Source: an uncultured Fidelibacterota bacterium
GTDB taxonomy: Bacteria; Fidelibacterota; Marinisomatia; Marinisomatales; TCS55
Assembly (NCBI GenBank): GCA_902615915.1
Contig: CACMQQ010000001.1
Coordinates: 186,001-250,000, forward strand
Direction: 5' to 3'
DNA: 64,000 bases
Positions 21,042 to 49,846 of the stretch are shown here, in pieces. The translations under genes and the position numbers were made by a program. The first letter of the stretch is position 1, and each line of letters opens with the position of its first letter. The notes under the pieces were generated by a model. It worked only from the letters and a program-made list of their open reading frames with translations. It was not told the DNA's origin and did not search any database.

Positions 21042-21125
21042 ATAAATCTTTGTGATTTCATTAAATAAAAAAAAATTTGTTTTTTTTTAAAAAAACGTTG
21101 TTTATTAGTTTATTTTTAGTTTAAT

Positions 21126-21170
21126 GTCTTTGAGAAAAGACTTACTAAAGCCGAGGTAAGACAGGCTTTT
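21126..21170 (+). promoter_or_regulatory. Candidate structured leader upstream of the susC-like gene
   Basis: GTCTTT-GAGA-AAAGAC hairpin (21126-21141), overlapping CTTAC/GTAAG (21041+85 to 21160) and AAAGCC/GGCTTT (21147-21169) pairings followed by T-rich tail. Confidence 0.3.
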
Positions 21171-21213
21171 TATGTACATTTTTGATATTAAAACAGTGGA
21201 GGGCACTAATAAA

Positions 21214-24453: not shown

Positions 24454-24471
24454 GAGTAGGAGAAGATTAAA

Positions 24472-26130
24472 ATGAAAATAACTAATAAAATAACTGGTAT
24501 AGCATTATCGTTTGCAATGTTTATGACAGCATGTGCTGATTTAGACGTTACCAATACTAACGCTCCAGACCAGTCTCGTGCTCTAGCATCTCCAGCAGAT
24601 GTAGAATCTTTGATTAAGAGTACATTTTTAACCTGGTGGCAAGGCGTCCACGTGACAGGTTCAGGTTTCCAACCTATGGTCATGGGAGACTCTCAGTCTT
24701 CTTCATGGGGTAACTATGGAATGCGTGAAATGTCAAGTGAGCCTCGCGCCGCCATTAATAATAGTCCTGCATGGGGATATGCATTTTATATTGAAGACCC
24801 ATGGTATGACTTATATGGTGCTATCTCATCTGCAAAAGATGGATTAGCTTCATTAAAAGCAGGTCAAGAGGGTGGTAAAAACTTCCTAGCTACCGCTGAA
24901 GATGATAAAAGAGCAGAGGTATTCGCAAAATTTATTTTAGCAATATCTAATGCTCAAGTCGCATCATGGTACGACAAGGGTTTTTACGTAGATGGGGACA
25001 CTGACTTCTCACAGAAGATTGAAACTGTCGATTACAAAACTCTGATGTCAAGTGCATTAACTGCGCTCGAAGCAGTGGTTTCTGAAGCAGAAGCTAATAG
25101 TACTGTATCTATACCTGAAGATTGGATGCAAATTCCTGGCATGACCATGGCTGATCTTGCTAAAGTTGGTCATAGCATGCTTGCACGTTACAAAGCTGCT
25201 GTTGGTAGAGATGCTACCGAAAGAGCAGCTGCTGATTGGGCAGACATTGCATCTCACGCATCAAAAGGTGGCGAGTTTGCTCCTGTTGGTGATGGTGACT
25301 TTTGGTGGACAAGAACACAATATTATTCAGCTGTTTCTAGAAGTTGGGGTAGAGCAGATTACAAAATGATTGGCCCTGCTGACAAATCAGATGGATATAA
25401 GAACTGGTTAGGCGATGGTAGCGATGCTACTGTTGCTGGTCGTAAAGCCTTCTCAATTGTAACTGACGATAAAAGGATATCAGCTGGTGATGCAGGCGAT
25501 GGTACCCAGGCAGCTGGTTTGTACGGCTTAAATGAGTATCGTACTCGATTAATTGCTTCAAGAGGTACATATCATCAGACCTATTACTTCTGGAATAGAC
25601 AATCAGCTTACGCAACTACTTTAGTTGGTCCAATGCATGATGTTGTACAGTCTGAGCTTGATCTTTATCAAGCTGAGGCAGCGCTTCGTGGTAATGATGC
25701 TGCATCTGCAGCGACCTTTATTAACAATAGTCGTGTAACTATTGGAGGTTTATCCGCTGCAACCGGTTCAACACCAGTTGGATCTCCATCAGATGCACCA
25801 AGTGCACTTGATGATGCATCTCTATGGGCAATGTTGAAATACGAGCAGATTATTGAAGCAACGCAAACGAATCCGTTTGTACCCTTTTATCATAGAAGAG
25901 GTCATGGCGACCTAGTTAAGGGTACTGCTGAGCATCTACCAATACCAGGCAAAGAGTTAGAAATCCTATTGATGGATTCTTACACCTTTGGTGGTCAAGA
26001 CGCTATCGGAACAGATGGTACAGCAGGAAGAAAAATATCACCATTTGATGGTAATGGTGGATTTAGAACACGTGGTTTTGTTATTGAGTGGGATAAAGTA
26101 ACACCGTTAACAGACAGCGCGCTCAAGTAA
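24472..26130 (+). CDS. SusD/RagB-family outer-membrane lipoprotein
   Basis: Lipoprotein signal (FAMFMTACADLDVTNTNAPD), immediately follows SusC-like gene, SusD-like helical repeat composition. Confidence 0.85.
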   Translation: MKITNKITGIALSFAMFMTACADLDVTNTNAPDQSRALASPADVESLIKSTFLTWWQGVHVTGSGFQPMVMGDSQSSSWGNYGMREMSSEPRAAINNSPAWGYAFYIEDPWYDLYGAISSAKDGLASLKAGQEGGKNFLATAEDDKRAEVFAKFILAISNAQVASWYDKGFYVDGDTDFSQKIETVDYKTLMSSALTALEAVVSEAEANSTVSIPEDWMQIPGMTMADLAKVGHSMLARYKAAVGRDATERAAADWADIASHASKGGEFAPVGDGDFWWTRTQYYSAVSRSWGRADYKMIGPADKSDGYKNWLGDGSDATVAGRKAFSIVTDDKRISAGDAGDGTQAAGLYGLNEYRTRLIASRGTYHQTYYFWNRQSAYATTLVGPMHDVVQSELDLYQAEAALRGNDAASAATFINNSRVTIGGLSAATGSTPVGSPSDAPSALDDASLWAMLKYEQIIEATQTNPFVPFYHRRGHGDLVKGTAEHLPIPGKELEILLMDSYTFGGQDAIGTDGTAGRKISPFDGNGGFRTRGFVIEWDKVTPLTDSALK

Positions 26131-26148
26131 ACTATCGTTTTATATTAT

Positions 26149-26183
26149 AAAAAAAAGGCCCTATTTATTAGGGCCTTTTTTTT
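26149..26183. terminator. Bidirectional rho-independent terminator
   Basis: A-tract, AGGCCCTATTTATTAGGGCCT perfect stem, T-tract. Confidence 0.9.
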
Positions 26184-26200
26184 GCTAAGGAACTACAAGC

Positions 26201-26677
26201 ATGAACAGAAAAATTATTATAACTTTTATGGTGTCTTTGTTTTTAATCAATTGTGCTGGTACGAGTAGTAACGGTCCTAAAGTAAGAGACCATAGAGTAT
26301 CAATTGGTCTTGCAACTAATGAAGATTTTGTTACGCTTGCAAATAGAGTACTAAATCGTCATCGATTTGTGATAGAGCAAACTGAGGATCGTGGGGCAGG
26401 AACCGTTATAATTTGTCAATACGTTTATCCGAACATCACTAATCTTGAGATCTTAAACGGTATTAACGAAGTGAGATATCAATTAATGTTAGAGTCTAGA
26501 GTAAAAGGTAACGGAGCTGGTATGTATAGCGTAAGAGCTATCGTTAAGTCCTTTGGTAGACCAGAGGGTAGTGAGGAATGGATCGATGTAGCTACCAACG
26601 ATGAAACCAAGAAGCGCATAAAAGACTTTTCAAACGATTTGAAAATAGAATTCGAGAATCGTATTAGAGCATTTTAA
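26201..26677 (+). CDS. Lipoprotein of unknown function
   Basis: MNRKIIITFMVSLFLINCAGTSS lipobox; no recognised domain. Confidence 0.6.
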   Translation: MNRKIIITFMVSLFLINCAGTSSNGPKVRDHRVSIGLATNEDFVTLANRVLNRHRFVIEQTEDRGAGTVIICQYVYPNITNLEILNGINEVRYQLMLESRVKGNGAGMYSVRAIVKSFGRPEGSEEWIDVATNDETKKRIKDFSNDLKIEFENRIRAF

Positions 26678-26732
26678 AGGCTTCCATCTAGTTTAAATAA
26701 ATCGGTATTTAATCTACTTAAATTCAACTTAA

Positions 26733-29282
26733 TTAAAACGCGTGCCCAAAAAATACTGCATTCAGTAGAAGACCGTTTGTTCCATACCAAAAAGCTCTGA
26801 AGGATGGATTATCCCCAAACATGATAATATGTCCACTTCCTTGTCTTTTAGCTATGATCGAAGCTGTGCCTTTCATGTCGTTTAATCTTTCCTCTGAAAT
26901 ATAACCACTTAAAAGTGGATTGTTAGTATATCTTGCAACGTTTGCAGAGGGCGATTTGGATAGTTCAAAAAAAGTATCACCTCGTTTAAAAACAGGCACT
27001 GCCCTTTTATAACCATATCCAATTGGATGCGTATTGTCTAGTCTTACGTTGAATATGGCACCACCAATGCGCTGTGCACCTGTAGTGTTTCTAACTCTGC
27101 TATATGCTATATCTAAATTAATCTGCTTGTTCTTTTTGATTTTCTCAGTTGTGATCTTTTTATTTACTGCCCATCTTGATGCGGATCCAGTAGTTATTAA
27201 AGTTCCACCTTCTCTATTCCAATCCTTTATCGATTGTATATCAGTTGAGTCAAGCATTGTATAATTTCCATCAGCTAAGATCAACGTATTATAGTGTGAC
27301 AATTTTCTTTGAGTAAGATTATTAGCATCAACCAACGAGGCGGGTATATGCATTCGATGATTTAAAAGATGCCAAACTTCTCCTACACCATAAGATGATG
27401 TTCCTCTTCCAGAGAGGATTGCAACTTTTGGTTTTTTAAGTAGGCCTTGAAATGCACCACCCAAATCAGGACCCGTGGGTGTTGATGCAGAGTTAGTAGC
27501 ATAGATATTAACATGGTTTTCAAGAGCAATATCATTCATTATATTATGAATATCATCTTCCGTTAGCGTAGAATTAGCATCTCGCTGTGACACTGGTATC
27601 ACAATCGTTCCTCTATCAAAACTCATTTTTTTTCCATTAACAATCGCAGAAAAGGGCTCTGTCGTTAATCTTGGAAGTACGCCTGAGTCTAAAATTTTAT
27701 ATAATGCACGTGCATTATAATACCTATTCCATTTCATCAGATATGCAGATTGTGCCTTCCCGCCCATTACGCTACCTCCGTCTAGTTCAACGGGCGGTAA
27801 TTCATTTCCTAAATAGGAATCCGGACCTTGTTTTAATTGGTAGCTCTCTACGCCATAAGCAAGGGGTAAGGTCCATGCAGAAACATCATAAAAGAGTGAA
27901 TCTGTAAACATGGTCACTTTTTCCATTATACCATTGATAAATCTCGTTTGTGGTTGTTTAGTAGGTACAATGACTGCCTCTCCTTTGTTAAACTTACCTT
28001 CGCGAATCGAAATAGTCCTTTTAAGCTCATACGCTTTAATTCTGTGACTTTGGAGATTTCTTAATAGCATTTGCGCTTTAGTTCTATTGTTTTTAAGGCT
28101 GATTAAATATCCTTTTACAGGATTTTTTTTAGCTTCAGAATTCGCTGTTTGGTAAAAGCTTTTCTGGTAGTTTAAAAAATCTTTCCTAAGCGCAACTAGA
28201 CCATCTATGTTGCCAAGTGTCGCCATAAATTGATTTCTAACAGAAAATGCATAGGTCAATTTTCCTGAAGTGGTTGTTGTCTCAAGTGACCTCGATGACC
28301 CTTGTTCAAATAAGATCCCTACAGAACCATGTATGTCACCAAAGGTAGATCCTTTGCCATAATAAAAATCATCAAAAGATTGCTCTGAATAATACATTGA
28401 TTTAATAGAATCAAGCCTCTTAGCAAAATAGGGAGCTAGCTTGTATGCCAATTTAATTCCTTCTTCAGGAGTATTAGGATTATTTCGCGAAGGAATGCCA
28501 GGCTGAAAGAAAAAAGTAGAATTACCCCCCATCTCATGAGCATCTAAAAGATATTGAGGGCGCCAATAATGAAAAACAGAAACTCTACCCCTAGATTCAG
28601 GTTGTGTCAGAGGCAACCAATCTCTATTCATATCAAAAAAATAATGATTGGTTCTACCTCCTGGCCATGGCTCATTGTGTTCTCTATCTTGAACATCATC
28701 TGTAGCAACTAAGCCGCGATTGCCATTGACCCAATTCACAAAACGATCCCTACCATCAGGGTTAAACATTGGATCAACAATGAGAACTGTATTTTTTAAA
28801 ATTTGATCAATTTCATATCCCTTGCCTGCAGCTAAATGATATAAAAGCAATATAGCTGCTTCAGTTCCACTAGCTTCATTCCCGTGGATTGAATATCCTA
28901 AATAAGCTATTACAGGCATATTATTAATTTCATTATTAGACACACTTGATGGATTATCGGATAAGCGCAAGTTAGCTATTCTAATTAAATCAAGTTTCTC
29001 ATGATTTTCTGGTGAGGTAACTATAGCGTGAATTAATTTCCTCCCTTCATGGGAAATAGCATGTGATTTAAGAATAATCCTATCGCTTTCACTAGCTAAT
29101 GCCTCAAAGTAATCAACCACTTGACTTGTGCGGGTATGTCTAGTTCCAATCTGGTGGCCAATGATTTTTTCAGGTCTTGAAATCTGAGGATCGTATGAAA
29201 CATCTTTCACATTCATAGGCAAAGAAATCTTTTCTTGTGAAAACGCAATTGTGAAAAGAAAAAAATAAATAAAATGTCTCAT
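26733..29282 (-). CDS. M14-family zinc carboxypeptidase, secreted
   Basis: GYSIHGNEASGTEAA, DPMFNPDGRDRFVNW, DAHEMGG; signal peptide. Confidence 0.92.
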   Translation of the reverse strand: MRHFIYFFLFTIAFSQEKISLPMNVKDVSYDPQISRPEKIIGHQIGTRHTRTSQVVDYFEALASESDRIILKSHAISHEGRKLIHAIVTSPENHEKLDLIRIANLRLSDNPSSVSNNEINNMPVIAYLGYSIHGNEASGTEAAILLLYHLAAGKGYEIDQILKNTVLIVDPMFNPDGRDRFVNWVNGNRGLVATDDVQDREHNEPWPGGRTNHYFFDMNRDWLPLTQPESRGRVSVFHYWRPQYLLDAHEMGGNSTFFFQPGIPSRNNPNTPEEGIKLAYKLAPYFAKRLDSIKSMYYSEQSFDDFYYGKGSTFGDIHGSVGILFEQGSSRSLETTTTSGKLTYAFSVRNQFMATLGNIDGLVALRKDFLNYQKSFYQTANSEAKKNPVKGYLISLKNNRTKAQMLLRNLQSHRIKAYELKRTISIREGKFNKGEAVIVPTKQPQTRFINGIMEKVTMFTDSLFYDVSAWTLPLAYGVESYQLKQGPDSYLGNELPPVELDGGSVMGGKAQSAYLMKWNRYYNARALYKILDSGVLPRLTTEPFSAIVNGKKMSFDRGTIVIPVSQRDANSTLTEDDIHNIMNDIALENHVNIYATNSASTPTGPDLGGAFQGLLKKPKVAILSGRGTSSYGVGEVWHLLNHRMHIPASLVDANNLTQRKLSHYNTLILADGNYTMLDSTDIQSIKDWNREGGTLITTGSASRWAVNKKITTEKIKKNKQINLDIAYSRVRNTTGAQRIGGAIFNVRLDNTHPIGYGYKRAVPVFKRGDTFFELSKSPSANVARYTNNPLLSGYISEERLNDMKGTASIIAKRQGSGHIIMFGDNPSFRAFWYGTNGLLLNAVFFGHAF

Positions 29283-29306
29283 TTGAAAACTCCTGTCATA
29301 ATATGA

Positions 29307-30359
29307 TTACTTTATAAACAAACTATCTAAAGCTTCGATAAGTTCTGAATATTCTAAGTCTTGTCCAAAATAATATTCGCCTTTTGAATCTTGTAGGATA
29401 AGCTCCCAGTGTAAATGGGATTCGTCTTTAGTTCCTTTTGTGCTTGGACTTGTCCCAGTATTTCCTGAATATCCAAAAATTTCTCCAGACTTAATATTAT
29501 ATCCAGTTTCAAATTTAGGTATTATACTTGACAGATGCGCATAGATGGAAATCGACCTATATCCTGGGAATAATTCCAAACCGTGATCAATTATAACGGC
29601 TTGCCCTAAAAGTAGCTCGTTGAAAATATCTGAAGGCGTTCTGTTTATCACGCTTGCTCTTTTAAGCATTTCAATTCGAAAATTAGCTGGCATCTCTTTG
29701 TAGTTTATGTCTGATCTAATTATAATTCCATCTGCAACCGATCGAACCGGCGTTCCCCAATTAGAAAAAAAATCAATTCCTCTATGCGTACCAGAGCGAT
29801 ACGACCTAGGTGCATTTGGTAGTCTTGATGCTCTCTTAGGAAAACTCAATCCGTCAATAGGTAAAATGATTTTATTAGTGATTTTTGAAAAATCTGGCAC
29901 TTTACCACCTTTATCAAATAGATAATGTATAGGGAGCAAATCCTTTAGTTTTTTTATTTCTGTTTCAATATGACTTTTTAATTGAAGCGTGTCTATTGAG
30001 AATTTCATATTTATTTCATTGCCATTTTTATTCATACTTACGAATCTTCTGCTGTTTAAGCCAAGGAAGTCAATTTCATTTTCGTACATAGAAATAGACG
30101 AATCATGCAATGAGGGAAAAAATCTTTTGATTAAAAAGGTTTTATTGATAGGATTTTGTACATCTAGTAAATATTTATCAAAGTCTGATCTTATATCAAA
30201 AGTGATTGAAGCTTTTATACTATCAACGCTTATGTTGTAAGTAGTAGTAGAAATTGCAGTATCATCATCAACTAACGGAGAAGCATCGTTAAGCACAAGA
30301 ACGGGCTTGTTCGAGCAGCTTATGATAAAAAAAGTTAAAAGGATTATTTTTTTCATCAT
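29307..30359 (-). CDS. M23-family peptidase (peptidoglycan endopeptidase), lipoprotein
   Basis: Lipobox IISCSN; SGTHRGIDFFSNWGTPVRSVADG, SIYAHLSSI, GEIFGYSGNTG..PSTKGTKDESHLHWEL. Confidence 0.9.
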   Translation of the reverse strand: MMKKIILLTFFIISCSNKPVLVLNDASPLVDDDTAISTTTYNISVDSIKASITFDIRSDFDKYLLDVQNPINKTFLIKRFFPSLHDSSISMYENEIDFLGLNSRRFVSMNKNGNEINMKFSIDTLQLKSHIETEIKKLKDLLPIHYLFDKGGKVPDFSKITNKIILPIDGLSFPKRASRLPNAPRSYRSGTHRGIDFFSNWGTPVRSVADGIIIRSDINYKEMPANFRIEMLKRASVINRTPSDIFNELLLGQAVIIDHGLELFPGYRSISIYAHLSSIIPKFETGYNIKSGEIFGYSGNTGTSPSTKGTKDESHLHWELILQDSKGEYYFGQDLEYSELIEALDSLFIK

Positions 30360-30362
30360 TAA

Positions 30363-30791
30363 TTATTTCATCGATTTCAGTATATAAGATAGAGCATCTT
30401 CATAGACAGATAGAGGATGATTGATAAAATTTCTAGTTGAATATGAATTGAAAATAGATTTACTAAAATCTGATAATTCATATTCTTTATCAAATGAAAC
30501 TTGCAATAAATCATATTTACATATTTTGATCGTTTCAAGCAATGAATGCTCATACAAGGACCAAGACATGGGTGTAAAAATAAGCTTGTTAGAATAATTT
30601 CTATTGCGCTGTAAAAAATTGATTGCTTGAAATATCTTATGGGTTTGGAAAATCTTTAGTTCTATATCATTTCCTCTGCAAAATCTTTTCATACTCTTGT
30701 TGATTTTATCTAAAGTGACTGTTTCCTTATTCTTTGCAGATATCTTTCCAATCAAATTAAGGTTAGGACCATGGAGTATAAGAATTTTCAT
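30363..30791 (-). CDS. Degenerate type II 3-dehydroquinase (AroQ)-like protein
   Basis: N-terminal MKILILHGPNLNLIG matches AroQ; size and fold-like spacing match but later catalytic motifs are not conserved. Confidence 0.6.
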   Translation of the reverse strand: MKILILHGPNLNLIGKISAKNKETVTLDKINKSMKRFCRGNDIELKIFQTHKIFQAINFLQRNRNYSNKLIFTPMSWSLYEHSLLETIKICKYDLLQVSFDKEYELSDFSKSIFNSYSTRNFINHPLSVYEDALSYILKSMK

Positions 30792-30800
30792 TGCTATAAT

Positions 30801-31181
30801 CTATTGGACAGGAGCAAGGTTTCCAATAATATAACCAATAAGTATTCCTATCATCATTGCTATTGTTAAAACGCGAGATTTTGTTAAGTCTGAACCATGC
30901 CCTTTTCTTATAGCTACTGCACTAATAAAATAACTCATAGCGTTTACAATGTAGAAAAAAGGTATAGAAAATATCTTAACAAGAAATGGCCCTATAAGTG
31001 GCACCGCAGCTGCTAACGCTGCTAAACCTGCAAAGGCTTGAGTAAAAACCCCTATTACAACAGTTCCAAAAACAACAATCTTTTTATCTATACCATATTT
31101 TATAGCGAAATAGATAGAGCAAGAAATGCTTGACCAAATTAGCAAATTATTCCAATTTTTTTTTAAGAATCCTTTTTTCAT
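30801..31181 (-). CDS. Small multi-pass membrane protein of unknown function
   Basis: Several hydrophobic segments; directly downstream of mgtE. Confidence 0.6.
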   Translation of the reverse strand: MKKGFLKKNWNNLLIWSSISCSIYFAIKYGIDKKIVVFGTVVIGVFTQAFAGLAALAAAVPLIGPFLVKIFSIPFFYIVNAMSYFISAVAIRKGHGSDLTKSRVLTIAMMIGILIGYIIGNLAPVQ

Positions 31182-31184
31182 AAT

Positions 31185-32558
31185 TTATATACCGGTTAAT
31201 AAGAATTTTGCAATTAGAAAATATAGTGTCACTCCTAGTATATCAATAGCTGTAGTCACAAATGGCCCAGTAGCGATTGCAGGATCGATATCAAATTTAT
31301 CCAATATAAGCGGAACTATAGAACCTATAGTCGTAGCAATAATCATGGACGACCATATACTTAGCCCAACTGCTAAACCAAGAGTGGGTGGCATATTTAT
31401 AAATTTAATTACTGCAAATAATCCTAGAAGAATACCATACAAAGTTCCAAGAATTAGGCCAACTCTAATTTCTTTAAATAAAACTTTAATTGAGTTTTCA
31501 ATGTTTACTCTCCCAGTTGCAAGCCCGCGCACAATTAAAGTTGAGGATTGAGTGCCAACATTTCCACCCATTCCTATGATTACCGGTATAAATGCTGCTA
31601 GCGCTATCGATTTCTCTAAGATATCATCAAAAATACCAATTATAAATGCGGCCATTATTCCACCTATCCAGCTAGCAAAAAGCCATGGCAAGCGACTTTT
31701 TGCATTTTCCCAAGATGATCTCAACAAGATCTCTCTATCTTTTCCTGCTCCAACCATTTGTAGAAAATCTTCAGTGGCTTCTTCTCTAATAACATCCACG
31801 ACATCATCAACTGTAACAATTCCCAGCAGTTTGTCTTCAGAGTCAATCACTGGAACTGCTAATATATTATATTGAGAAACAATCTTTGCAACCTCTTCTT
31901 GATCTGTCTCAGGTCTAATTGCATGAATCTGACGAGACATAATATCCTTTAATTTAGTTTCAGCTGGAGTTATAACAAGTTCCCTGAGAGAAATTACTCC
32001 TGTCAATCTACCTTCGTCATCTAAGGTATATAAATAAAAAACCATCTCTGCATCACACTGATCTTGAAGTGCATCTACTGCTTGCTTTGCGTTGGTTTCT
32101 TCATGAAGAGTAAATACATCTGTATTCATCAAGCTTCCTGCGCTATCATCAGGGTAAGCCATTATCTCTTCAAGCTGTTCTTGCTCATCAGTTTCTAGAA
32201 GCTTGATAACCGAATTTGCAAATCTTTCATTAACAAGACCCATTAAATATGCTTGTTCATTTGAACTAGCATATTGCAAAATAGATGCTATCCTCTCTGC
32301 TGAATCATTCTCTAGAAGACGTAATGCTGTCGATTCGTACAATTCACTTAAGAATTCAACAGTATTATTGTCAGCCTTCATGAAATTAAATATTAGATCT
32401 TGTTCAGCTTCGTTCAGGTATTGAAAAGTTAAAGCCATATCTGCAGGGTGAGTTTTATCTATAAGTTTGATAATATTTGTCTTTGCATGTCGTCTAATCA
32501 ACCTTCTGAAAGTATCTCTTAAAATAGTTATTTCTGTTTCAAAAATCTCTTTCTTCAT
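31185..32558 (-). CDS. mgtE: Magnesium transporter MgtE
   Basis: MgtE N domain, tandem CBS domains, AYPDDSAGSLMNTD, AAFIPVIIGMGGNVGTQSSTLIVRGLATG. Confidence 0.96.
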   Translation of the reverse strand: MKKEIFETEITILRDTFRRLIRRHAKTNIIKLIDKTHPADMALTFQYLNEAEQDLIFNFMKADNNTVEFLSELYESTALRLLENDSAERIASILQYASSNEQAYLMGLVNERFANSVIKLLETDEQEQLEEIMAYPDDSAGSLMNTDVFTLHEETNAKQAVDALQDQCDAEMVFYLYTLDDEGRLTGVISLRELVITPAETKLKDIMSRQIHAIRPETDQEEVAKIVSQYNILAVPVIDSEDKLLGIVTVDDVVDVIREEATEDFLQMVGAGKDREILLRSSWENAKSRLPWLFASWIGGIMAAFIIGIFDDILEKSIALAAFIPVIIGMGGNVGTQSSTLIVRGLATGRVNIENSIKVLFKEIRVGLILGTLYGILLGLFAVIKFINMPPTLGLAVGLSIWSSMIIATTIGSIVPLILDKFDIDPAIATGPFVTTAIDILGVTLYFLIAKFLLTGI

Positions 32559-33343
32559 ACTTTAACTCCGCTTGTATGAATATTCTTGAAACCAAAACTA
32601 AATGCTACTATCCCAAATAATATTATAATTGGATGAATATGTCCATTCCAGAGAATAATATGCTCAACATAATCATCAAATGTTGTTAAAAAAAGAGATG
32701 TACCGTTTATACAAATATGAAAAATAATGGAGGGCAAAACGGACTGTGTTTTCCATGCAAGGTAGCCCAGCAATATCCCAAGTAAATAGATTTGAATGAT
32801 CCAGTAAGGGTTAAAATGAATAAAAGCAAAAAATAAACTTGAAACTAAAATAGCCCTGGTTACATCTTTCCACGTATTTTCAAGGTAGTGCTGTAAAAAA
32901 CCTCTGAATAGCAGCTCTTCTCCAATTGGAGCAATGATAACAATTGTCAAGCTTAATAAAACAAAAGAAATCAATTCGTCAGGTCTTAAAATATCCTCAA
33001 GCTGCGAAAAAGAATCTGGCAATGGAATTATCATTTCAAATAATATGTTTATTTCATCTGAAATAACGACTGCTCCAATGGATAGAATAAAAGAATAAAA
33101 TAATACTTTTTTTGATACCCTATTGATTCTAAGGCTTTTGGCTATGTTTAAATTATTTCTTTTTAATAATAATATTGTTGGGACAACTATAAAGAACTGA
33201 GCAAGAAACATCCCTATATATGTTGAAATTGATGGATCTCCTCCATAATCAATTGAACCTAGAGCTGTTCCAATTATCAATGCAGAAAGGACTGAAAACA
33301 ATACTACTAAAAAAATTTGCCATGTAGATTGATTTTGTTTCAC
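32555..33343 (-). CDS. CPBP-family intramembrane metalloprotease
   Basis: APIGEELLFRGFLQ, SSLFFAFIHFNP, SIIFHICINGTS motifs. Confidence 0.9.
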   Translation of the reverse strand: MKQNQSTWQIFLVVLFSVLSALIIGTALGSIDYGGDPSISTYIGMFLAQFFIVVPTILLLKRNNLNIAKSLRINRVSKKVLFYSFILSIGAVVISDEINILFEMIIPLPDSFSQLEDILRPDELISFVLLSLTIVIIAPIGEELLFRGFLQHYLENTWKDVTRAILVSSLFFAFIHFNPYWIIQIYLLGILLGYLAWKTQSVLPSIIFHICINGTSLFLTTFDDYVEHIILWNGHIHPIIILFGIVAFSFGFKNIHTSGVKV

Positions 33344-33412
33344 TTTTAATTAACTCTTTTCTTTTCATTGATCCATAAATTACCACCTTTATAGGGCAAT
33401 TAAAACACTACA

Positions 33413-34141
33413 TTAGTTTGTAAATCTATGTAATACAATACCCATAGCTACGCCAATATTTAAAGATTCCCCTTTGCCAAATCTTTCAATCTTTACATAT
33501 GATGAAATTTTTTTGTTCATAGTTTTTGAAATACCAGAAGCTTCGCTACCCATGACAAGTGCCCAATTTTTAGGATTAGATATATCGTTAATATCTTTTC
33601 CTTTATTGAAATCTGCACCAATTAAATTAAACCTGTTCAAATCTTCTGAGCTGGGCGTACCTAAATATTTCATATTGAAATGAGAACCCATCGACGATCG
33701 CACAACTTTTGGATTATAGAATTCAACGCTATTAGGAGATATGCCAACTTGTTTTATTCCAAACCAATCGCAAGTTCTGACGATTGTTCCAAGGTTCCCA
33801 GGGTCTGAAATTTGGTCTAAATACACCATCGGAAAATCTGGATTTAATTTGCTTTGTAGAGGTATTGCTGCTTCTGCTAATATTCCTGACGGGCTATCAA
33901 CTTGTGATAATTGACCGAAACATTTATCATCTACAATAGATGTTTTGTATTTATTATATGCAGCTAAATTTTTATTATTTTCTATAAAACTCTTACTTAA
34001 AACAATATTTTTTATGTTGACGCTGTTGTGAATAGCAGTCAATATCGATCTTTTGCCTTCAATAATAAAATTATTATTTTTTAATCTTCCTTTTTTTGTG
34101 TAAAGAGATTTAATGCGTTTTTCTAGAATCTTCGATATCAA
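33413..34141 (-). CDS. TrmH/SpoU-family RNA 2'-O-methyltransferase
   Basis: DQISDPGNLGTIVRTCDWFG, ALVMGSEASGIS, SLNIGVAMGIVLHR; TTG start overlapping upstream TGA. Confidence 0.93.
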   Translation of the reverse strand: MISKILEKRIKSLYTKKGRLKNNNFIIEGKRSILTAIHNSVNIKNIVLSKSFIENNKNLAAYNKYKTSIVDDKCFGQLSQVDSPSGILAEAAIPLQSKLNPDFPMVYLDQISDPGNLGTIVRTCDWFGIKQVGISPNSVEFYNPKVVRSSMGSHFNMKYLGTPSSEDLNRFNLIGADFNKGKDINDISNPKNWALVMGSEASGISKTMNKKISSYVKIERFGKGESLNIGVAMGIVLHRFTN

Positions 34142-35820
34142 TTTAATTTATACTCAACTTTACCATTTACTATAGTGTGTGTAACTTTTGTTTTTAATAT
34201 TTCACTTTCAGGTACAGTCATTATATTTTGCGAAAAAACTGTAAAGTCTGCATATTTACCAATCTCTACAGTTCCTTTGATGTCTTCTTCAAAGGCACCG
34301 TAAGCAGCATTTATAGTATAGCTTTTTAATGCTTCCATCCTTGTCATTTTTTGTCTTGGTTCATATCCATTATCTGGGCTGCCAGATAATGTTTTTCTAC
34401 TTACGCTAGCATAAAAGCAGGCAATAGGATTGATGGGCTCAACAGGAACATCACTTCCATTTACCAGAACTGCTCCATTATTGATAAGGTCTCTCCATGC
34501 ATAAGCACCTTCAGTTATCCTTTTTTCCCCAAGCCTATCAATTGCCCATGGTCTATCAGAAGACATATGAATACCCTGTATAGATGCAATTACTCCTAAT
34601 TTTCCAAACCTTGGAATGTCAATCGGGTCAACATGTTGGGCATGTTCAATTCTCCAGCGATGATCGAATGACAAGTCATTGTATTCTAGAAAGACCTTTT
34701 CGTATTGATCAAGAACTTCTCTATTAGTTCTATCCCCTATTGCATGGGTATTGACTTGAAAACCATTTTGAATGCCCTTTTTGCTTACATCGTAAACATA
34801 TTTCATTGGTTGAGTTGCCATGCCGAAGTGGCCAGGACGATCAGTGTATTCATCAAGGAGCCATGCGCCTCTTGAGCCAAGAGCGCCATCTGCGTTAAGC
34901 TTTATGGATCTTATTGTTAAATAATCATCAGCTAATCCTATTGCAGGCCCCTTTTGATACCATTCTTCTAATAAAGACTCATCTCTACTAGTAAGCATAG
35001 AATATATCCTTACTTTGAGTTCATTATCTTTAATTGCATCTCTAATCATCTTTAACGACTTGCGCGATGTTCCTGCATCTTGGAATGACGTAATTCCATT
35101 TTTTAGACATTCTTCCACTGCTAGTTTGATTACTTTTGAAGAATCATTACTTTTATCAACATATTGTGAAATCAAGTATTGGGCTCTTTCATTAAAAATA
35201 CCCGTTGGGTTTCCAGAAAGATCTTTAATTATTTCACCGCCAAATCCAAATTCAGTTTCTTTTGAAATGCCCGCTATTTCCATAGCCTTTTGATTGCCAA
35301 AACTTGCATGTCCGCTAGCATGTCTTAACCAAACAGGGTTGTTCTTTGATATCTCACTTAATTTCTCATGCGTTTGAAAACCCCTAACGATCTTTTCGGG
35401 TTTTAATGCCCATTTGTCTTGGTGCCATCCTCGCCCAATTATCCATTCTCCCTCTTGTGCATTTTTTATTGCGCTTTCTACTACACTGATTAGCTCATCA
35501 TAGCTTTTGACACTGCTTAGATCTAAATTAAGCTTTGATTCACCTAAGCCAGTAAAATGCCCATGGCCTTCAATCAGGCCAGGTGTTAGAGTTTTACCTT
35601 CTAGATCTATTAAATCTGTACGGTCAGACTTATACCTTTTTAGTTTTTGCCAATCTCCTAAATCTAAAATTTTACCATCTTTTACAGCTACAGCACTTAC
35701 AATAGGGTTTAAATCATTAACCGTATAAATATTACCGTTATATATAATCATATCTGCCTTTTTTGATGTGCAAGCAAAAAACCCTAATGATATGATTATT
35801 AATAGAAGATATTTTTTCAT
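34138..35820 (-). CDS. Amidohydrolase family protein (YtcJ-like), lipoprotein
   Basis: Lipobox; GKTLTPGLIEGHGHFTGLG, NTHAIGDRTNREVLDQYE, RIEHAQHVDPIDIPRFGKLGVIASIQGIHMSSD, GSDVPVEP. Confidence 0.93.
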   Translation of the reverse strand: MKKYLLLIIISLGFFACTSKKADMIIYNGNIYTVNDLNPIVSAVAVKDGKILDLGDWQKLKRYKSDRTDLIDLEGKTLTPGLIEGHGHFTGLGESKLNLDLSSVKSYDELISVVESAIKNAQEGEWIIGRGWHQDKWALKPEKIVRGFQTHEKLSEISKNNPVWLRHASGHASFGNQKAMEIAGISKETEFGFGGEIIKDLSGNPTGIFNERAQYLISQYVDKSNDSSKVIKLAVEECLKNGITSFQDAGTSRKSLKMIRDAIKDNELKVRIYSMLTSRDESLLEEWYQKGPAIGLADDYLTIRSIKLNADGALGSRGAWLLDEYTDRPGHFGMATQPMKYVYDVSKKGIQNGFQVNTHAIGDRTNREVLDQYEKVFLEYNDLSFDHRWRIEHAQHVDPIDIPRFGKLGVIASIQGIHMSSDRPWAIDRLGEKRITEGAYAWRDLINNGAVLVNGSDVPVEPINPIACFYASVSRKTLSGSPDNGYEPRQKMTRMEALKSYTINAAYGAFEEDIKGTVEIGKYADFTVFSQNIMTVPESEILKTKVTHTIVNGKVEYKLN

Positions 35821-35939
35821 AATTGTCCTAATTTAAAAAATCAAAAGTTTAATGTAATTTATAGTGCAAAAATTAATACTAAATTTTATCTTCTATGAAT
35901 AATCTTTAATCCAGTTATAACATAAGGCTTAATCAAACA

Positions 35940-37409
35940 ATGTCTAAAAATACGACAATCCAAAAAGAAAACTTTTCAAGCTGGTATACGGATATCGTTA
36001 CCAAAGCAGGTTTAGCAGACTATGGACCTGTAAAGGGGACGATGGTTATCATGCCTTATGGTTTTGAGCTCTGGGATTTAGTAAAAAACGTTTTAGACAA
36101 AATGATAAAAGAGACAGGACATGTTAATGCTTATTTCCCAATTTTCATTCCTAAATCTTACTTAGCAAAAGAAGCTGAGCACATTGATGGATTTGCTAAG
36201 GAATGCGCAGTTGTTACTCATACACGATTAAAATCTGATCACAATGGAGACATAAATGTTGACCCTAGCTCTCGTTTAGAAGAGGAAGTGATTGTTCGGC
36301 CTACCTCAGAGACTATCATATGGTCAATGTACAAAAAATGGATCCAGTCTTACAGAGACTTACCCCTTTTAATCAATCAATGGGCTAATGTTGTAAGATG
36401 GGAGATGCGCACAAGGTTGTTTCTGAGAACTTCAGAATTTCTTTGGCAAGAAGGGCATACAGCGCATGCAACCGCTGAAGAAGCGGAAGAAGAGACTTTA
36501 AAGATATTGGATTTATATAAGTGTTTAGCTGAAGATTATTTGGCTATGCCCGTATTAACTGGTCTCAAAACAGAAGCTGAAAAATTTGCCGGTGCTAAAA
36601 AAACATATTGTATTGAAGCAATGATGGGAGATAAAAAGGCTTTACAAGCTGGAACATCACATAACTTAGGTCAAAATTTTGCCAAAGCATTTGGAGTAAC
36701 ATTTCAAAACGACAAAAATGAAGAAGAATTGGTATTTGCAACAAGTTGGGGCGTAAGTACAAGACTTGTAGGAGCAATAATCATGACTCACGGAGACGAA
36801 AATGGATTAAGACTACCTCCTAAAATAGCACCAATTCAAGTTGTAGTTGTTCCGATTTTTAAAGATGAAGATCAAAAAAAAGCTATAAAAAGCTTTATTA
36901 TGAATCAAATACAGGACCTTAAAAATGAAAATATTAGAATTTATGAAGACTGGTCCGATAGACGGCCTGGTTCAAAATTTAATCATTGGGAGCTTAAAGG
37001 AGTTCCAATTAGAATTGAGATAGGCCAAAGGGATATATTAAATGAAGAATTAGTGCTTTATCGAAGAGATAAAAATGAGAAGAGTAATATTAAAATAGAT
37101 GATTTTGTTAATATAGTAAAAAAGACCCTGCGCGATATTCAGACAAACTTATTTTTAGAGGCAAAAAATTTTCAAGTTAAAAATACCCATAATGTTAAAA
37201 ACTTTGATGAATTTAAAACTGTTATTGAGAATGAGGGTGGTTTTATAAAGTGCGGATGGGATGGCACTTCAGAAACGGAGTCCAGAATTAAAGAGCTGAC
37301 TAAAGCCACAATTAGAGTGATTCCATTTGAGCAAGATATTGATCAATTAAAATGTATTTACTCTAACAAAAAAGCGAAATATGAAGTGATTTTCGCCAAG
37401 GCATATTAA
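35940..37409 (+). CDS. proS: Prolyl-tRNA synthetase, archaeal/eukaryotic (ProS type 3) form
   Basis: FSSWYTDIVTKAGLADYGPVKGTMVIMPYGFELW, VRPTSETIIWSMY, RTSEFLWQEGHTAHA, C-terminal extension ending KYEVIFAKAY. Confidence 0.96.
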   Translation: MSKNTTIQKENFSSWYTDIVTKAGLADYGPVKGTMVIMPYGFELWDLVKNVLDKMIKETGHVNAYFPIFIPKSYLAKEAEHIDGFAKECAVVTHTRLKSDHNGDINVDPSSRLEEEVIVRPTSETIIWSMYKKWIQSYRDLPLLINQWANVVRWEMRTRLFLRTSEFLWQEGHTAHATAEEAEEETLKILDLYKCLAEDYLAMPVLTGLKTEAEKFAGAKKTYCIEAMMGDKKALQAGTSHNLGQNFAKAFGVTFQNDKNEEELVFATSWGVSTRLVGAIIMTHGDENGLRLPPKIAPIQVVVVPIFKDEDQKKAIKSFIMNQIQDLKNENIRIYEDWSDRRPGSKFNHWELKGVPIRIEIGQRDILNEELVLYRRDKNEKSNIKIDDFVNIVKKTLRDIQTNLFLEAKNFQVKNTHNVKNFDEFKTVIENEGGFIKCGWDGTSETESRIKELTKATIRVIPFEQDIDQLKCIYSNKKAKYEVIFAKAY

Positions 37410-40785: not shown

Positions 40786-40995
40786 ATGGCTGATTTTACT
40801 TCATCTGTCCAAGGTATTGCTAATTCTGTAGTTAGCTTAGTTAAAGCACTAATTGTCATGTTCGTATTTGTGAACATACTTTACTCCACTGGGTTTGACC
40901 CAATTGGTGGAATTGTAGATCTTGTAGAATCCTTTTTAGACGGTGGATTCTCTGGTCTATTGGCCTTGTTAATTTTTGTTTCTTTTGCGGGTTAA
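40786..40995 (+). CDS. Small hydrophobic membrane protein (69 aa), paralogue of next ORF
   Basis: Strong SD AAGGAGG upstream; two hydrophobic segments; GGFSGLLALLIFV shared with 41061-41276. Confidence 0.75.
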   Translation: MADFTSSVQGIANSVVSLVKALIVMFVFVNILYSTGFDPIGGIVDLVESFLDGGFSGLLALLIFVSFAG

Positions 40996-41060: not shown

Positions 41061-41276
41061 ATGAAAAAGGCCTTTGAAACCGTAACCTCTTTTATAAATG
41101 ATGTGACCGGTCTGTTACAAGGGCTTGTAGTTCTTGGAATCGTCGTCGGTATATTGTTCAATGACTATTTTGGTGTCATTACAGCAATTGGCGATCTAAT
41201 GGCAAAATTTGGCGATGCTGGGTTTGCTGGTTTGCTCGCTCTTATGTTAATAGTTTTTTGGTATAACAAAAACTAA
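41061..41276 (+). CDS. Small hydrophobic membrane protein (71 aa), paralogue of previous ORF
   Basis: Strong SD AAGGAG upstream; two hydrophobic segments; AGFAGLLALMLIVF. Confidence 0.75.
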   Translation: MKKAFETVTSFINDVTGLLQGLVVLGIVVGILFNDYFGVITAIGDLMAKFGDAGFAGLLALMLIVFWYNKN

Positions 41277-44230: not shown

Positions 44231-45478
44231 ATGAATGTAAGTGAATTACAAAAACTAAAAATTAAAGAACTAGCAGAGTTTGCTGAGAAATTAAAAATTG
44301 ATAGCTATTCAGGAATGAATCGCCAGGAGCTCATTGTCAAGATACTTGAATACCAGGTAGAAAATGATGTGGGAATTACTGCTAAGGGTGTCCTAGAAGT
44401 TTTAAACGAAGGTTATGGTTTTTTAAGAAGTCCGGATTTTAATTATTTACCTGGCCCAGATGACATTTATGTTAGCCCTTCTCAGATTAAAAGGTTTGGC
44501 TTAAGGACTGGACATGAAGTTGAGGGTAAGATTCGACCTCCAAAATCCAAAGAAAGATTTTATGCACTACTAAAAGTTGATACTGTTAACGATAAAGAGC
44601 CATCTAAATTGAAAGAAGCTATTTTATTCGATAATCTGACACCGCTTTATCCCGATTCTAAATTTAACCTAGAAGTAAATCCGAAAGATCTATCTACCAG
44701 AGTAATGGATCTTATATCTCCAATTGGCAAAGGACAAAGGGGGTTGCTTGTTGCACAGCCAAAAACAGGTAAGACTGTTTTACTGCAAAAAATTGCAAAT
44801 GCAATCACAAAAAATCATAAAGAAGTTCAAATGATAATTCTCTTAATAGATGAGCGCCCTGAAGAAGTAACAGATATGAAAAGAAACGTAGATGCTGAAG
44901 TTGTTAGCTCTACATTTGACGAAGCCCCGGAAAGACATGTAGCTGTTGCAGAGATGGTCATACAAAAAGCAAGAAGAATGGTCGAATTTGGTGAAGATGT
45001 TGTCATTTTACTTGACAGTATTACCAGACTAGGTAGGGCTCATAATGCTGTAATCCCACACAGTGGTAAAATATTATCTGGGGGAGTTGATGCAAATGCT
45101 CTAAAAAAACCAAAGCAATTTTTTGGTGCAGCTAGAAATACTGAAGAAAGTGGAAGTTTAACAATCATAGCTACTGCATTAATCGATACAGGAAGTAGAA
45201 TGGATGAAGTAATCTTTGAAGAGTTTAAAGGCACTGGCAATATGGAACTAGCAATGGATCGTAGGCTCAGCGATAGAAGAATTTACCCTTCTTTTGATTT
45301 AATTAAATCAGGCACAAGAAAAGAAGAGCTCTTGCTTGATAAAAAGGTCCTTGCAAGGATGTGGATACTGAGAAAACTATTAAATGAAATGAATGTAATT
45401 GAAGCAATGGAATTCATTCAAGATAGAATGCGAAGAACCAACACTAATGAAGAGTTTATGGAAACAATGAGCCAATAA
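44231..45478 (+). CDS. rho: Transcription termination factor Rho
   Basis: [88 protein letters not shown]. Confidence 0.98.
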
Positions 45479-45488
45479 TTTTTTTTCG

Positions 45489-46463
45489 ATGCCTCCTCAA
45501 ACATCTCATATTCAATATATTTCAACAGCCCTGGTAACTGACAAGCCGGTTAGAAAAACGCCTTATCAAGTTAAGGGTTCAATTATGAAAAATTATCCAA
45601 AAAGTGAAATTGTACCGATGTTAAATGGTAGCTACAGGAAGAAATATCTTTATCCTAGGGTTCAAGTTAAAATATTAAATGAAAAAATTTATTTCCTTGG
45701 AATTGCTGAAGGAGTGAGCGCTGTTAGATCTTTAATCGATAATTTTAAATCTTTAGACTTTGGAAATATTACTTTTAAAATAAAAGATATTATCATTGAT
45801 GAAAACGGATTATTTGAGCAAACGGATCATATTAATAAATATAAATTTATAACTCCCTGGGTAGCGCTAAATAGAACAAATATTAAAAAATTTTCAAAGA
45901 CATCTACATCGCAAAAAAGAAAATTCTTGTGCGAACTCTTAACTAGAAACTTGATCTTTTTGACTAGCGAGTTTAAGATTAATGTTGATGAAAAAATATT
46001 AACAGATATTGAATTAGAGGATAAATCATTATCAAGTTTCAACGAAAATAGAGATGTTGGTTTTGAAGGAAGCTTCTTAACTAATTTTCTATTACCTGAT
46101 TTTATTGGATTGGGTAATGGAATAACTAGAGGATATGGCTCCATAAAGCACAAACAAAAAATCAAAAATGAAGAAATTGATACAAGTAAATTTTACATGC
46201 TAGACAAAAAAAATATCAATTCAAAAAGTAATAACAAAAATAGGCCAACAAAGAAAAGAAAAAAGTCTTTACCTAAAAAAACCATCATTAACGAAGAAAA
46301 TGAAATAAATTATAATACTCTTAAAAATAACATATCGAATTTTACTACTAAGAATAAAAAAACAAATTCTAAAAAATTTAAAAAGAAGAAGGCATCAGAT
46401 CGATCCTTTAATAATATAAATTTTAATTCAGAAGAATATCACAAAAAACAACATTCTATATGA
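45489..46463 (+). CDS. Cas6b-like (CRISPR repeat endoribonuclease-family) RNA-binding protein with Lys/Asn-rich C-terminal tail; not CRISPR-associated in this window
   Basis: Resembles Cas6b N- and C-terminal domains: YPRVQVKILNEKIYFLGIAEG, YKFITPWVALNRTNIKKF, LTRNLIFL, GFEGSFLTNFLLPDFIGLGNGITRGYGSIKHK (Cas6 glycine-rich loop). Confidence 0.75.
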   Translation: MPPQTSHIQYISTALVTDKPVRKTPYQVKGSIMKNYPKSEIVPMLNGSYRKKYLYPRVQVKILNEKIYFLGIAEGVSAVRSLIDNFKSLDFGNITFKIKDIIIDENGLFEQTDHINKYKFITPWVALNRTNIKKFSKTSTSQKRKFLCELLTRNLIFLTSEFKINVDEKILTDIELEDKSLSSFNENRDVGFEGSFLTNFLLPDFIGLGNGITRGYGSIKHKQKIKNEEIDTSKFYMLDKKNINSKSNNKNRPTKKRKKSLPKKTIINEENEINYNTLKNNISNFTTKNKKTNSKKFKKKKASDRSFNNINFNSEEYHKKQHSI

Positions 46464-47656
46464 TCGCTAGATTATCAGATAGATCAAAAAAAATTAAACC
46501 TTCATTTACGCTTGAAATGACAAGTAAAGTAGCTAAGTTAAGATCACAAGGCGTAGATGTTATAAATTTTAGCGCAGGACAACCTGACTTTAATACACCA
46601 AAAAATATAATTAATGCAGCCACTAAAGCTATGGATAGTGGTTTAACAAAGTATACATCTGGATCAGGCATGATTGAACTCAGAGAAGCAATTTGCAACA
46701 AGCTTGCCAATGAAAATTACATTAGTGCAAATATAAACCAAGTTTTAGTATCTAATGGGGAAAAACAAAGCCTTTATCTTGCTTGTCAAGCACTATTTCA
46801 ACAAAACGATGAAGTATTGATATTTACCCCTTATTGGGTATCCTTCCCTGAATTTGTAATTTTGGCTGAAGCAACTCCAGTATTTGTTAAAACAAAAATT
46901 GATAAAAATTTTGAGCCTGATTTTGACGATCTTAAATCTAAAATAACTCCTAACACTAAAGGTATGATTATAAACACTCCATCTAATCCAACAGGTGGCG
47001 TTTGGTCAAAAGAGGCTATCAAAAAATCATTAAAAATAGCCTCAGATAACAATATAACAGTTATATCAGATGAATGTTATGAAAGATTAGTTTTTAATAG
47101 TTATCATGAAATATCGGAAAAGATCAATCTTGAAGAGAAAATAAATGCTCAGATATTGACATGCATGAGCATGTCTAAAACTTATGCTATGACTGGTTGG
47201 AGAATAGGTTACACTTATGGAAATAAAGAAATCGTATCAGCAATGTCTAAAATACAAGGCCAGTCAACCTCCTGTGCAAACTCTATTGCCCAAGCTGCAT
47301 CTATAGAGGCTCTTAGCGGAGACCAGTCAAAAGTTGAGGCTATGATAGGTCAATTTAAAAAGAGAAGAGACTTAATGGTAAGTTTATTAAATTCTTTGCC
47401 TGATATTTCTTGCAAAATGCCAGGTGGAGCATTTTATGCTTTTCCATCTTTTGAAAAATATTTAGGAAGAAAAATTAAAAATAAAACAATAAATAATTCT
47501 TTTGATTTGAGCAATCTTTTTCTAAGTGAAGCTAATATTGCTACTGTGCCAGGTGATGGCTTCGGCGCCTCTGGCTTCGTTAGGTTCTCGTTCGCAACAT
47601 CTGAGAAAAATATTGTTGAAGGTTTATCCAGAATCAAAGATTTATTAATTAATTAA
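46460..47656 (+). CDS. PLP-dependent class I/II aminotransferase (aspartate aminotransferase-like)
   Basis: FSAGQPDFNTPKNI, NTPSNPTGGVW, SMSKTYAMTGWRIGY, VRFSFATSEKNI; ATGA overlap with preceding gene. Confidence 0.95.
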   Translation: MIARLSDRSKKIKPSFTLEMTSKVAKLRSQGVDVINFSAGQPDFNTPKNIINAATKAMDSGLTKYTSGSGMIELREAICNKLANENYISANINQVLVSNGEKQSLYLACQALFQQNDEVLIFTPYWVSFPEFVILAEATPVFVKTKIDKNFEPDFDDLKSKITPNTKGMIINTPSNPTGGVWSKEAIKKSLKIASDNNITVISDECYERLVFNSYHEISEKINLEEKINAQILTCMSMSKTYAMTGWRIGYTYGNKEIVSAMSKIQGQSTSCANSIAQAASIEALSGDQSKVEAMIGQFKKRRDLMVSLLNSLPDISCKMPGGAFYAFPSFEKYLGRKIKNKTINNSFDLSNLFLSEANIATVPGDGFGASGFVRFSFATSEKNIVEGLSRIKDLLIN

Positions 47657-47668
47657 AGGCTTTAAAAA

Positions 47669-47866
47669 ATGAAATTAAATATTCATCCAGATTACAAACT
47701 TGGCAAAGTAACTTGCTCTTGTGGAAACGTATTTTATGTTGCTAGCACAATAGGCGATCAAAATGTTGAGATATGCTCTGCTTGTCACCCATTTTATACT
47801 GGAAAACAAAAATTGGTTGATACAGCAGGTAGGATTGAAAAATTTAAGAAAAAATACAGCAGCTAA
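47669..47866 (+). CDS. rpmE: 50S ribosomal protein L31 (zinc-binding, Cys-containing form)
   Basis: [22 protein letters not shown]...[31 protein letters not shown]. Confidence 0.97.
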
Positions 47867-47915
47867 TTTAGAATTGATATCATTATTAGTTTAGTTCCTA
47901 ATAAAATATAAGAAG

Positions 47916-48989
47916 TTGATAGAGAAACTTAAAGAAATAATTTCTAAGTATAATACAATTGAGTCTAAGATGTCTGACCCATCTTTAGTAAACAACTTAG
48001 ACGAATTTAAAAAAGTTACAAAAGAGCATAACAGATTAAAACCAATTGTTGAAAAATCCTTGATCTTTATTAATTCAAAAAATCAATTTTCTGACAATCT
48101 TGATTTGATAGAAAATGAGAAAGATCCTGATCTTATTATGCTTGCAAAAGAAGAAAATGATCTTTTAAGCTCACAAATATCAGACTTAGAGGATGAATTA
48201 AAGATTCTCATTTTGCCTCATGATCCAACCGATGACAAAAATTCTATTATTGAAATAAGAGCAGGAACGGGCGGTGATGAAGCAGCACTATTTGCTTCAG
48301 ATCTTTATCGCATGTATTCTCGGTTTGCAGAGAGAAATAGTTGGGACTTTTCTGTTTTAGACTCTAGCCCTATTGGGATCGGCGGTTTAAAAGAAATAAT
48401 CTTTTCATTAAAAGGGGATGGTGCTTATGGTGTTATGAAATATGAAAGTGGAGTTCATAGAGTTCAAAGAGTGCCAAAAACTGAAACAAGTGGCAGAGTA
48501 CATACCTCTGCTGCAACTGTTGCAATATTACCAGAAGCGGAAGATGCAGATATCAATGTTATCGACTCAGACCTAAAAATTGACACATATAGAGCAAGTG
48601 GAGCTGGAGGTCAGCATGTCAACAAAACTGAGTCTGCTATAAGAATAACCCACATTCCAACTGGGCTTGTCGTAACATGCCAGGACGAATCTTCACAACA
48701 CAAAAATAAAGCTGCGGCCTTAAAGGTTTTAAAATCTCGCTTGTTAGCAGCTGAACAAGAAAAACTTGCCAAGGAAAGAGCGGCGGCAAGAAAAAGCATG
48801 GTTTCAACAGGTGATAGATCAGCAAAAATACGCACATACAATTTTCCCCAAGGAAGAATCACTGATCACAGAATTAATTTTACATCTTATAATTTAGATG
48901 CGGTTATGGACGGTGACATTAAAGAGATAATTGAAAAACTAAAAATAGCGAATCAAGAAGAACAGCTAGCTTCTTTTGCAAATAATTGA
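47916..48989 (+). CDS. prfA: Peptide chain release factor 1
   Basis: GGQ motif RASGAGGQHVNKTESAIRITHIPTG; EIRAGTGGDEAALFASDLYRMY; TTG start. Confidence 0.97.
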   Translation: MIEKLKEIISKYNTIESKMSDPSLVNNLDEFKKVTKEHNRLKPIVEKSLIFINSKNQFSDNLDLIENEKDPDLIMLAKEENDLLSSQISDLEDELKILILPHDPTDDKNSIIEIRAGTGGDEAALFASDLYRMYSRFAERNSWDFSVLDSSPIGIGGLKEIIFSLKGDGAYGVMKYESGVHRVQRVPKTETSGRVHTSAATVAILPEAEDADINVIDSDLKIDTYRASGAGGQHVNKTESAIRITHIPTGLVVTCQDESSQHKNKAAALKVLKSRLLAAEQEKLAKERAAARKSMVSTGDRSAKIRTYNFPQGRITDHRINFTSYNLDAVMDGDIKEIIEKLKIANQEEQLASFANN

Positions 48990-49846
48990 TTAAGCCCTCT
49001 TCAAGCTTTAATTATATATTGAATTATGGTCTTGAATTTTTAAAATCAAACTCCATTGAAAATCCAAAAAAAGAAATAGAAATCTTTCTTTGCCATTTAC
49101 TTTCTTATTCAAAGTTTGAATTATACAATAGTGCAGAAAAAAGCATTTCATTAGCAAAAGTAAATTTGCTTAATGAGTGGTTAGAGAGAAGAGCTAAAAG
49201 AGAACCAATTCAATATATAATTAACAATGCATGGTTTTATGGAAGGGAATTTTATGTAAATAAAAATGTTTTCATTCCGAGACCTGAATCTGAAAGGTTA
49301 ATAGAAGTGGCTATAAATCATTTAAGAGATTTCGATTCGCCTAAAATATTAGAAATTGGAACTGGATCAGGATGTTTGTCTATTTCTTTGGCAATTGAAT
49401 TGCCAAATTCTAAAGTTCGATCAATTGATATTTCTGAGAAAGCAATAAATGTTGCTAAAATTAATTCTGAAAAGTTTCACGTTAATAATATTTCATTTAA
49501 AAAATTGGATTTTTTAAAAAGTGAAATGAAAACGTTTTATAATTTTGATCTGTTAATATCTAATCCTCCATATATACCAAAAAAAGATATGGAATCATTA
49601 ATGCCTGAAGTTCGAAACTTTGAGCCATATAATTCATTGACAGATGATAGTGATGGATTAGAATTTTATAGAAAATTTTCTAGTGACCTTCCTTATATTT
49701 TAAATAGTAATGGTATAGGTATTTTTGAAGTTGGGCTTAGCGCTCACCCTAAAGACGCTAAAAGAATCTTTAATAAAATTGGTAGAAGTATAAAACTACT
49801 AAAAGACTATAATGGTGATGATAGGCTCTTAATTGTTAAGTTATAA
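48986..49846 (+). CDS. prmC: Release factor glutamine methyltransferase
   Basis: LEIGTGSGCLSISLAIELP, NPPY motif (ISNPPYIPKKDMESLMPEVRNFEP); adjacent to prfA. Confidence 0.95.
   Translation: MIKPSSSFNYILNYGLEFLKSNSIENPKKEIEIFLCHLLSYSKFELYNSAEKSISLAKVNLLNEWLERRAKREPIQYIINNAWFYGREFYVNKNVFIPRPESERLIEVAINHLRDFDSPKILEIGTGSGCLSISLAIELPNSKVRSIDISEKAINVAKINSEKFHVNNISFKKLDFLKSEMKTFYNFDLLISNPPYIPKKDMESLMPEVRNFEPYNSLTDDSDGLEFYRKFSSDLPYILNSNGIGIFEVGLSAHPKDAKRIFNKIGRSIKLLKDYNGDDRLLIVKL

Follow-up and report, generated by a model that had tools for sequence, protein, structure and literature searches.

A Cas6b-like protein without catalytic histidines, linked to rho in Marinimicrobia, may have been exapted from CRISPR-Cas

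Directly downstream of the gene for transcription termination factor Rho, a 64,000-nucleotide stretch of an uncultured Fidelibacterota genome (GenBank assembly GCA_902615915.1, contig CACMQQ010000001.1, positions 186,001 to 250,000; this whole stretch is called the window here) encodes a protein that has the fold of Cas6b, an RNA-processing enzyme of the clustered regularly interspaced short palindromic repeats (CRISPR)-Cas systems, but lacks its catalytic histidines. We name this rho-linked, His-less Cas6b-like protein C6L. Its features suggest a defence protein that became a housekeeping RNA-binding protein: we are confident that it is an exapted, CRISPR-independent protein, and its sequence suggests that it is probably non-cleaving. 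A role tied to Rho is the best explanation that we can offer, one on which our judgement is evenly poised, and the exact mode of action is less certain. The larger point, invisible from a single window, is the fixed linkage to rho across the phylum in genomes that are mostly free of CRISPR.

Results

The Cas6b fold is present and the catalytic histidines are missing

The original prediction, made from the window alone, called the open reading frame (ORF) Cas6b-like, and domain and structure searches agree. Both Pfam domains score above their curated cut-offs (Cas6b_C, E 3.4e-27, 95 bits with a cut-off of 39; Cas6b_N, E 6e-10, 39.5 bits with a cut-off of 25), and PADLOC likewise assigns the label Cas6/Cas6b. 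An AlphaFold2 model built with 76 homologues as input is confident for most of residues 10-225, with the predicted local distance difference test (pLDDT) mostly above 90 in the core, and is of low confidence in the tail. Foldseek searches with this model recovered the tandem repeat-associated mysterious protein (RAMP) fold; the best solved match is chain A of 4z7k, Methanococcus maripaludis Cas6b (E 3.5e-17; template modelling (TM) score by target 0.81), and the TM-score by target reaches 0.88 for other Cas6b chains. C6L shares with the M. maripaludis enzyme (4z7k/4z7l) the fold, both Pfam domains, the glycine-rich loop and the Tyr-Pro-x-x-Gln-x-Lys strand, and differs from it in the absence of the catalytic His, in the replacement of the glycine-loop Lys by Asn and in an additional C-terminal tail.

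Where are the catalytic residues? Two histidines are implicated in catalysis by M. maripaludis Cas6b (PMC3652601). The phmmer alignment of C6L with 4z7k/4z7l (E 2e-22) sets EEIVHNHRD of the enzyme opposite SEIVPMLNG of C6L, so that His38 and His40 (numbered as in the 4z7k chain) face P43 and L45. This alignment is gap-free from C6L residue 27 through the His positions, with a one-residue gap after them; shifting that gap brings M44 and N46 to the His sites, again without a histidine. The stretch that had been quoted as lacking histidine is indeed found in this ORF, and the loss extends well beyond it: in the 76-homologue alignment none of the 68 rho-linked homologues aligned (42 with a tail and 26 without) has His at the catalytic site. 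The [HN]NH motif expected of Cas6b is thus absent from C6L; each of the eight genuine Cas6b proteins taken from other loci in the phylum keeps it, with an invariant second His. As a possible escape, H7 or H114 had been named as substitutes at the active site; we reject both, since neither is conserved and the core of the rho-linked proteins contains no conserved His column. We also do not favour a relocated active site at H318 and H322, given that the tail is missing from the tail-less rho-linked relatives and that AlphaFold2 confidence there is low.

The glycine-rich loop is retained in C6L, and its position 214 is mostly Arg or Lys among the homologues; the loop Lys that is invariant in genuine Cas6b is Asn in 42 of 42 tailed proteins. 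The tailed clade carries conserved residues of its own at the lost His site (P43, G47, Y49, R50 and R57), so that the site is more than merely decayed.

Does the missing His mean missing cleavage? Not by itself, since the crenarchaeal SsoCas6 (Sso1437), which like C6L has a Cas6 fold without an active-site His, nevertheless cleaves RNA, with Lys25, Lys28, Lys51 and Arg231 important for it (PMC3652601). On this precedent C6L might cleave through a His-free Arg/Lys/Tyr site and process a cellular RNA such as the transcript of the rho operon, and the invariance of Arg50, Tyr55, Arg57, Gln59 and Lys61 across the tailed clade would fit such a nuclease. However, Tyr55, Gln59 and Lys61 are just as conserved in genuine Cas6b and may serve the fold or RNA binding, the glycine-loop Lys has been lost, and the window offers neither a CRISPR-like repeat (35-58 kb) nor a known RNA family (Rfam search). 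SsoCas6 itself processes CRISPR RNA (crRNA) and is a weaker fold match to C6L (3zfv, E 2e-4). We consider a His-free nuclease unlikely. The earlier suggestion of an RNA binder rather than an ordinary Cas6b nuclease is the better reading because the loss is conserved across the clade; the part of it that denies cleavage is left unproven by SsoCas6 and by the invariant Arg, Tyr, Gln and Lys residues.

C6L accompanies rho across the phylum

Our survey comprised 245 genomes of one phylum, mostly metagenome assemblies; the named relatives are filed under Candidatus Neomarinimicrobiota, Marinimicrobia or SAR406, and the phylum is now called Fidelibacterota. A profile search matched 131 of the 245 genomes, 127 with the rho-linked form and four with genuine Cas6b only. 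Within the window's order, family f15 excluded, C6L is found in 100 of 106 genomes; of the other six, five are missing a match to rho itself and in one rho is truncated. C6L is also absent from the loci sampled in families f16, f18, f24 and f26-f29 and in one f30 genus, and no divergent homologue is hidden behind rho in the C6L-less families, where the aminotransferase gene, rpmE or unrelated genes stand instead. One contig recorded under the name Sulfurimonas sp. UWMA-0129 (L110) encodes a Marinimicrobia-type C6L and is likely mis-binned.

Wherever both genes could be located (72 of 72 loci), C6L follows rho directly and in the same orientation. The gap spans 0-409 bp, with a median of about 47 bp, and start-codon choice probably accounts for the few large values. 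The genetic linkage that would be expected of a Rho cofactor working in the manner of NusG is therefore present. That linkage alone points to a functional link between C6L and Rho, which in our estimate could fall either way.

The usual gene string is folC-rho-C6L-aminotransferase-rpmE-prfA-prmC, and the conservation of most of these neighbours invites a different account, namely that C6L is an exapted RNA binder in translation or general RNA metabolism that adjoins rho only by way of the conserved rho-rpmE-prfA string. Three observations argue against it. The first is a disruption of the string in genus g62: folC, the aminotransferase gene, rpmE and prfA are lost from the neighbourhood, and the rho-C6L pair alone is kept, with a prenyltransferase-like gene and dnaE next to it on the downstream side; a single-contig genome of 2,788,509 bp belongs to this genus and carries the pair (G063, locus L176). 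Two f9 loci have lost the aminotransferase gene and retain rho-C6L. Finally, among the loci checked, no member of the His-less clade occurred at a distance from rho. We hold the translation account to be rather unlikely. As a separate observation on the string, a gene whose product starts ILVGGQA[VI][IM]EGVMMRVPGAYA sits between rpmE and prfA in many families (L232, L233, L236-L242, L182 and L186) and is absent from that place in the window.

C6L is independent of CRISPR

Could C6L process crRNA as the Cas6 of a CRISPR-Cas system that its own genome encodes? The Pfam and PADLOC labels would suggest as much, and the distribution of cas1 contradicts it: cas1 occurs in 31 of the 245 genomes and in 12 of the 127 C6L carriers, with none detectable in the other 115 (about 91%), and the window's genome, 87% complete, yielded no match to it. 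Three carriers that do have CRISPR (G179, G066 and G067) also encode, on the contig that bears cas1, another Cas6b that does contain the His. In these three genomes, as in G218 and G083, genuine Cas6b lies less than about 10 kb from cas1, and C6L and genuine Cas6b are thus different genes in different settings. The company of cas genes and a CRISPR array, expected of Cas6b, is not what surrounds C6L; no CRISPR-like repeat or array was detected in 35-58 kb of the window, the part of this genome that was searched for arrays, and PF10040, a different Cas6 family in Pfam, has no match in the window's own genome. A crRNA-processing role is, in our judgement, extremely improbable.

Descent and selection

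In the tree, support is 99/97 for the separation of the rho-linked clade from genuine Cas6b, 4z7k included, and 100/98 for a single clade of the tailed proteins. C6L has descended broadly in parallel with Rho: pairwise distances of the two proteins correlate (r 0.79, a value reached in none of 999 permutations), which is what vertical descent would produce, and vertical inheritance is our best reading. We rejected spread by plasmid or phage, for which the only matches were two Runella plasmid records (annotated Cas6, 28% identity), with no phage match. Presence and absence of C6L require eight changes on a quick Rho tree, six of them forced by starred branches, in which gains and losses are indistinguishable; the constant position of C6L leads us to favour a single early acquisition followed by several losses.

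The core of C6L is under purifying selection. In comparison with a congeneric orthologue, the ratio of nonsynonymous to synonymous divergence (dN/dS) is 0.041/0.461 (about 0.09) for the core and 0.115/0.429 for the tail. That C6L can be lost, given at least six to eight presence changes on the Rho tree, might suggest a functionless, decaying remnant; the core ratio contradicts this idea, as do reading frames intact in nearly all genomes and 42 invariant columns among 27 orthologues, and we give it almost no credence.

The C-terminal tail

In the window's order C6L ends in a linker that varies in both length and charge, followed by [FY]N[ST]xxYHxxxH, in which N313 and H318 are invariant and H322 is present in 46 of 48 proteins. 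Residues 223-324 of the window's protein have a calculated isoelectric point (pI) of 10.2. The motif NFNSEEYHKKQHSI matched no protein other than C6L at E < 0.2 in the genomes of 31 relatives, and we therefore rejected a docking module common to other proteins; a docking role for the motif within C6L is a guess.

Features of the C6L locus in the window (positions count from the first letter of the window)
Feature	Position	Strand	Description	Basis
C6L gene (rho-linked, His-less Cas6b-like protein)	45489-46463	+	324 aa	
Cas6b-fold core of C6L	45489-46154	+	residues 1-222; two RAMP/ferredoxin-like domains	Pfam, AlphaFold2, Foldseek
Codons P43, M44, L45, N46 of C6L	45615-45626	+	place of His38/His40 of M. 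maripaludis Cas6b	homologue alignments
Glycine-rich loop GLGNGITRGYG of C6L	46107-46139	+	residues 207-217	homologue alignment
Low-complexity linker of C6L	46155-46418	+	basic, predicted disordered	AlphaFold2, calculated pI
Conserved C-terminal motif NFNSEEYHKKQHSI of C6L	46419-46460	+	specific to the window's order	motif comparison in relatives
rho, transcription termination factor	44231-45478	+	10 bp upstream of C6L	ORF; pair in 72/72 loci checked
Aminotransferase gene	46460-47656	+	4-bp overlap with the end of C6L	ORF; conserved in most loci
rpmE, prfA, prmC, translation genes	47669-49846	+	same gene string as C6L	ORFs; conserved loci

Elsewhere in the window, two adjacent small ORFs of 69 and 71 aa lie between the enolase and amidase genes (40786-40995 and 41061-41276, + strand). 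Both products are hydrophobic, with similar C-terminal halves (GGFSGLLALLIF and AGFAGLLALMLI), and they look like tandem small membrane proteins.

Discussion

How might a Cas6b have come to work beside Rho? We propose that it was removed from CRISPR-Cas early in the history of the Marinimicrobia and became fixed directly downstream of rho, from whose operon it would be expressed. Membership in the Cas6b family suggests that C6L may still bind RNA, in which case the RAMP groove and the glycine loop would provide the surface, and its ability to cut would be lost or poor. C6L could then be a partner, through RNA binding, of Rho itself or of the transcripts that Rho terminates; it might, for instance, load Rho on particular RNAs or shield them. 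A flexible tail with YHxxxH at its end would have been added in the window's order, possibly as a docking site.

Several points weigh against this proposal. RNA binding may be altered, because C6L has Asn where genuine Cas6b has its glycine-loop Lys. Not all of the homologues have a basic core, the calculated pI of which ranges from 5.1 to 9.8. The adjacency outside genus g62 may be partly inherited synteny, since gene order around rho is generally conserved. Several families have rho without C6L, and Rho is thus able to do without it; among them is f15, a family of the window's order whose genomes do not exceed about 1 Mb and in which rho is followed directly by the aminotransferase gene. Lastly, contact of C6L with Rho or with RNA is something that we infer rather than observe directly.

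As to which RNAs C6L might bind, the original prediction had put forward terminator hairpins of this genome as candidates, a suggestion that found no support. Scanning 55 kb of the window in three stretches gave 8 terminator-like sites with 8.0 expected from shuffles, 10 with 11.2 and 17 with 9.1; counts were thus close to those of shuffles in two of the three stretches, no common hairpin was seen, and we rejected these hairpins as a substrate. The excess of 17 sites belongs to positions 20001-36000 of the window.

C6L differs from the Cas6b proteins of CRISPR-Cas systems in occurring mostly in genomes without such a system and in its fixed place beside rho. Another Cas6 relative, PfuCas6nc of Pyrococcus furiosus (3ufc), has been described as non-catalytic (PMC3652601); it is archaeal, has no known link to rho and is a distant fold match only (E 4e-6). 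Solo-Cas4 is an unrelated protein and likewise lacks a rho link. In the parts of PMC8730458 available to us, the exaptations of CRISPR components concern whole systems, effector modules or RNAs, and none is a case of a Cas6 retained as a core gene with a function outside CRISPR. Literature searches for Cas6 together with Marinimicrobia, SAR406, Rho, exaptation or domestication returned no description of C6L, and its novelty is provisional.

Because Pfam and PADLOC models label C6L as Cas6, automated pipelines will produce spurious calls of orphan CRISPR genes in the phylum. The role of C6L has become testable now that the phylum has a cultured member, Fidelibacter multiformis IA91, with a genome of 2.79 Mbp (PMC11652737). 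We tentatively suggest that a CRISPR RNA-processing protein became a dedicated RNA-binding partner of Rho near the base of the phylum and provides a lineage-specific control of Rho-dependent termination in the Marinimicrobia. If C6L does work with Rho, it would be a lineage-specific player in the transcription termination of abundant ocean bacteria.
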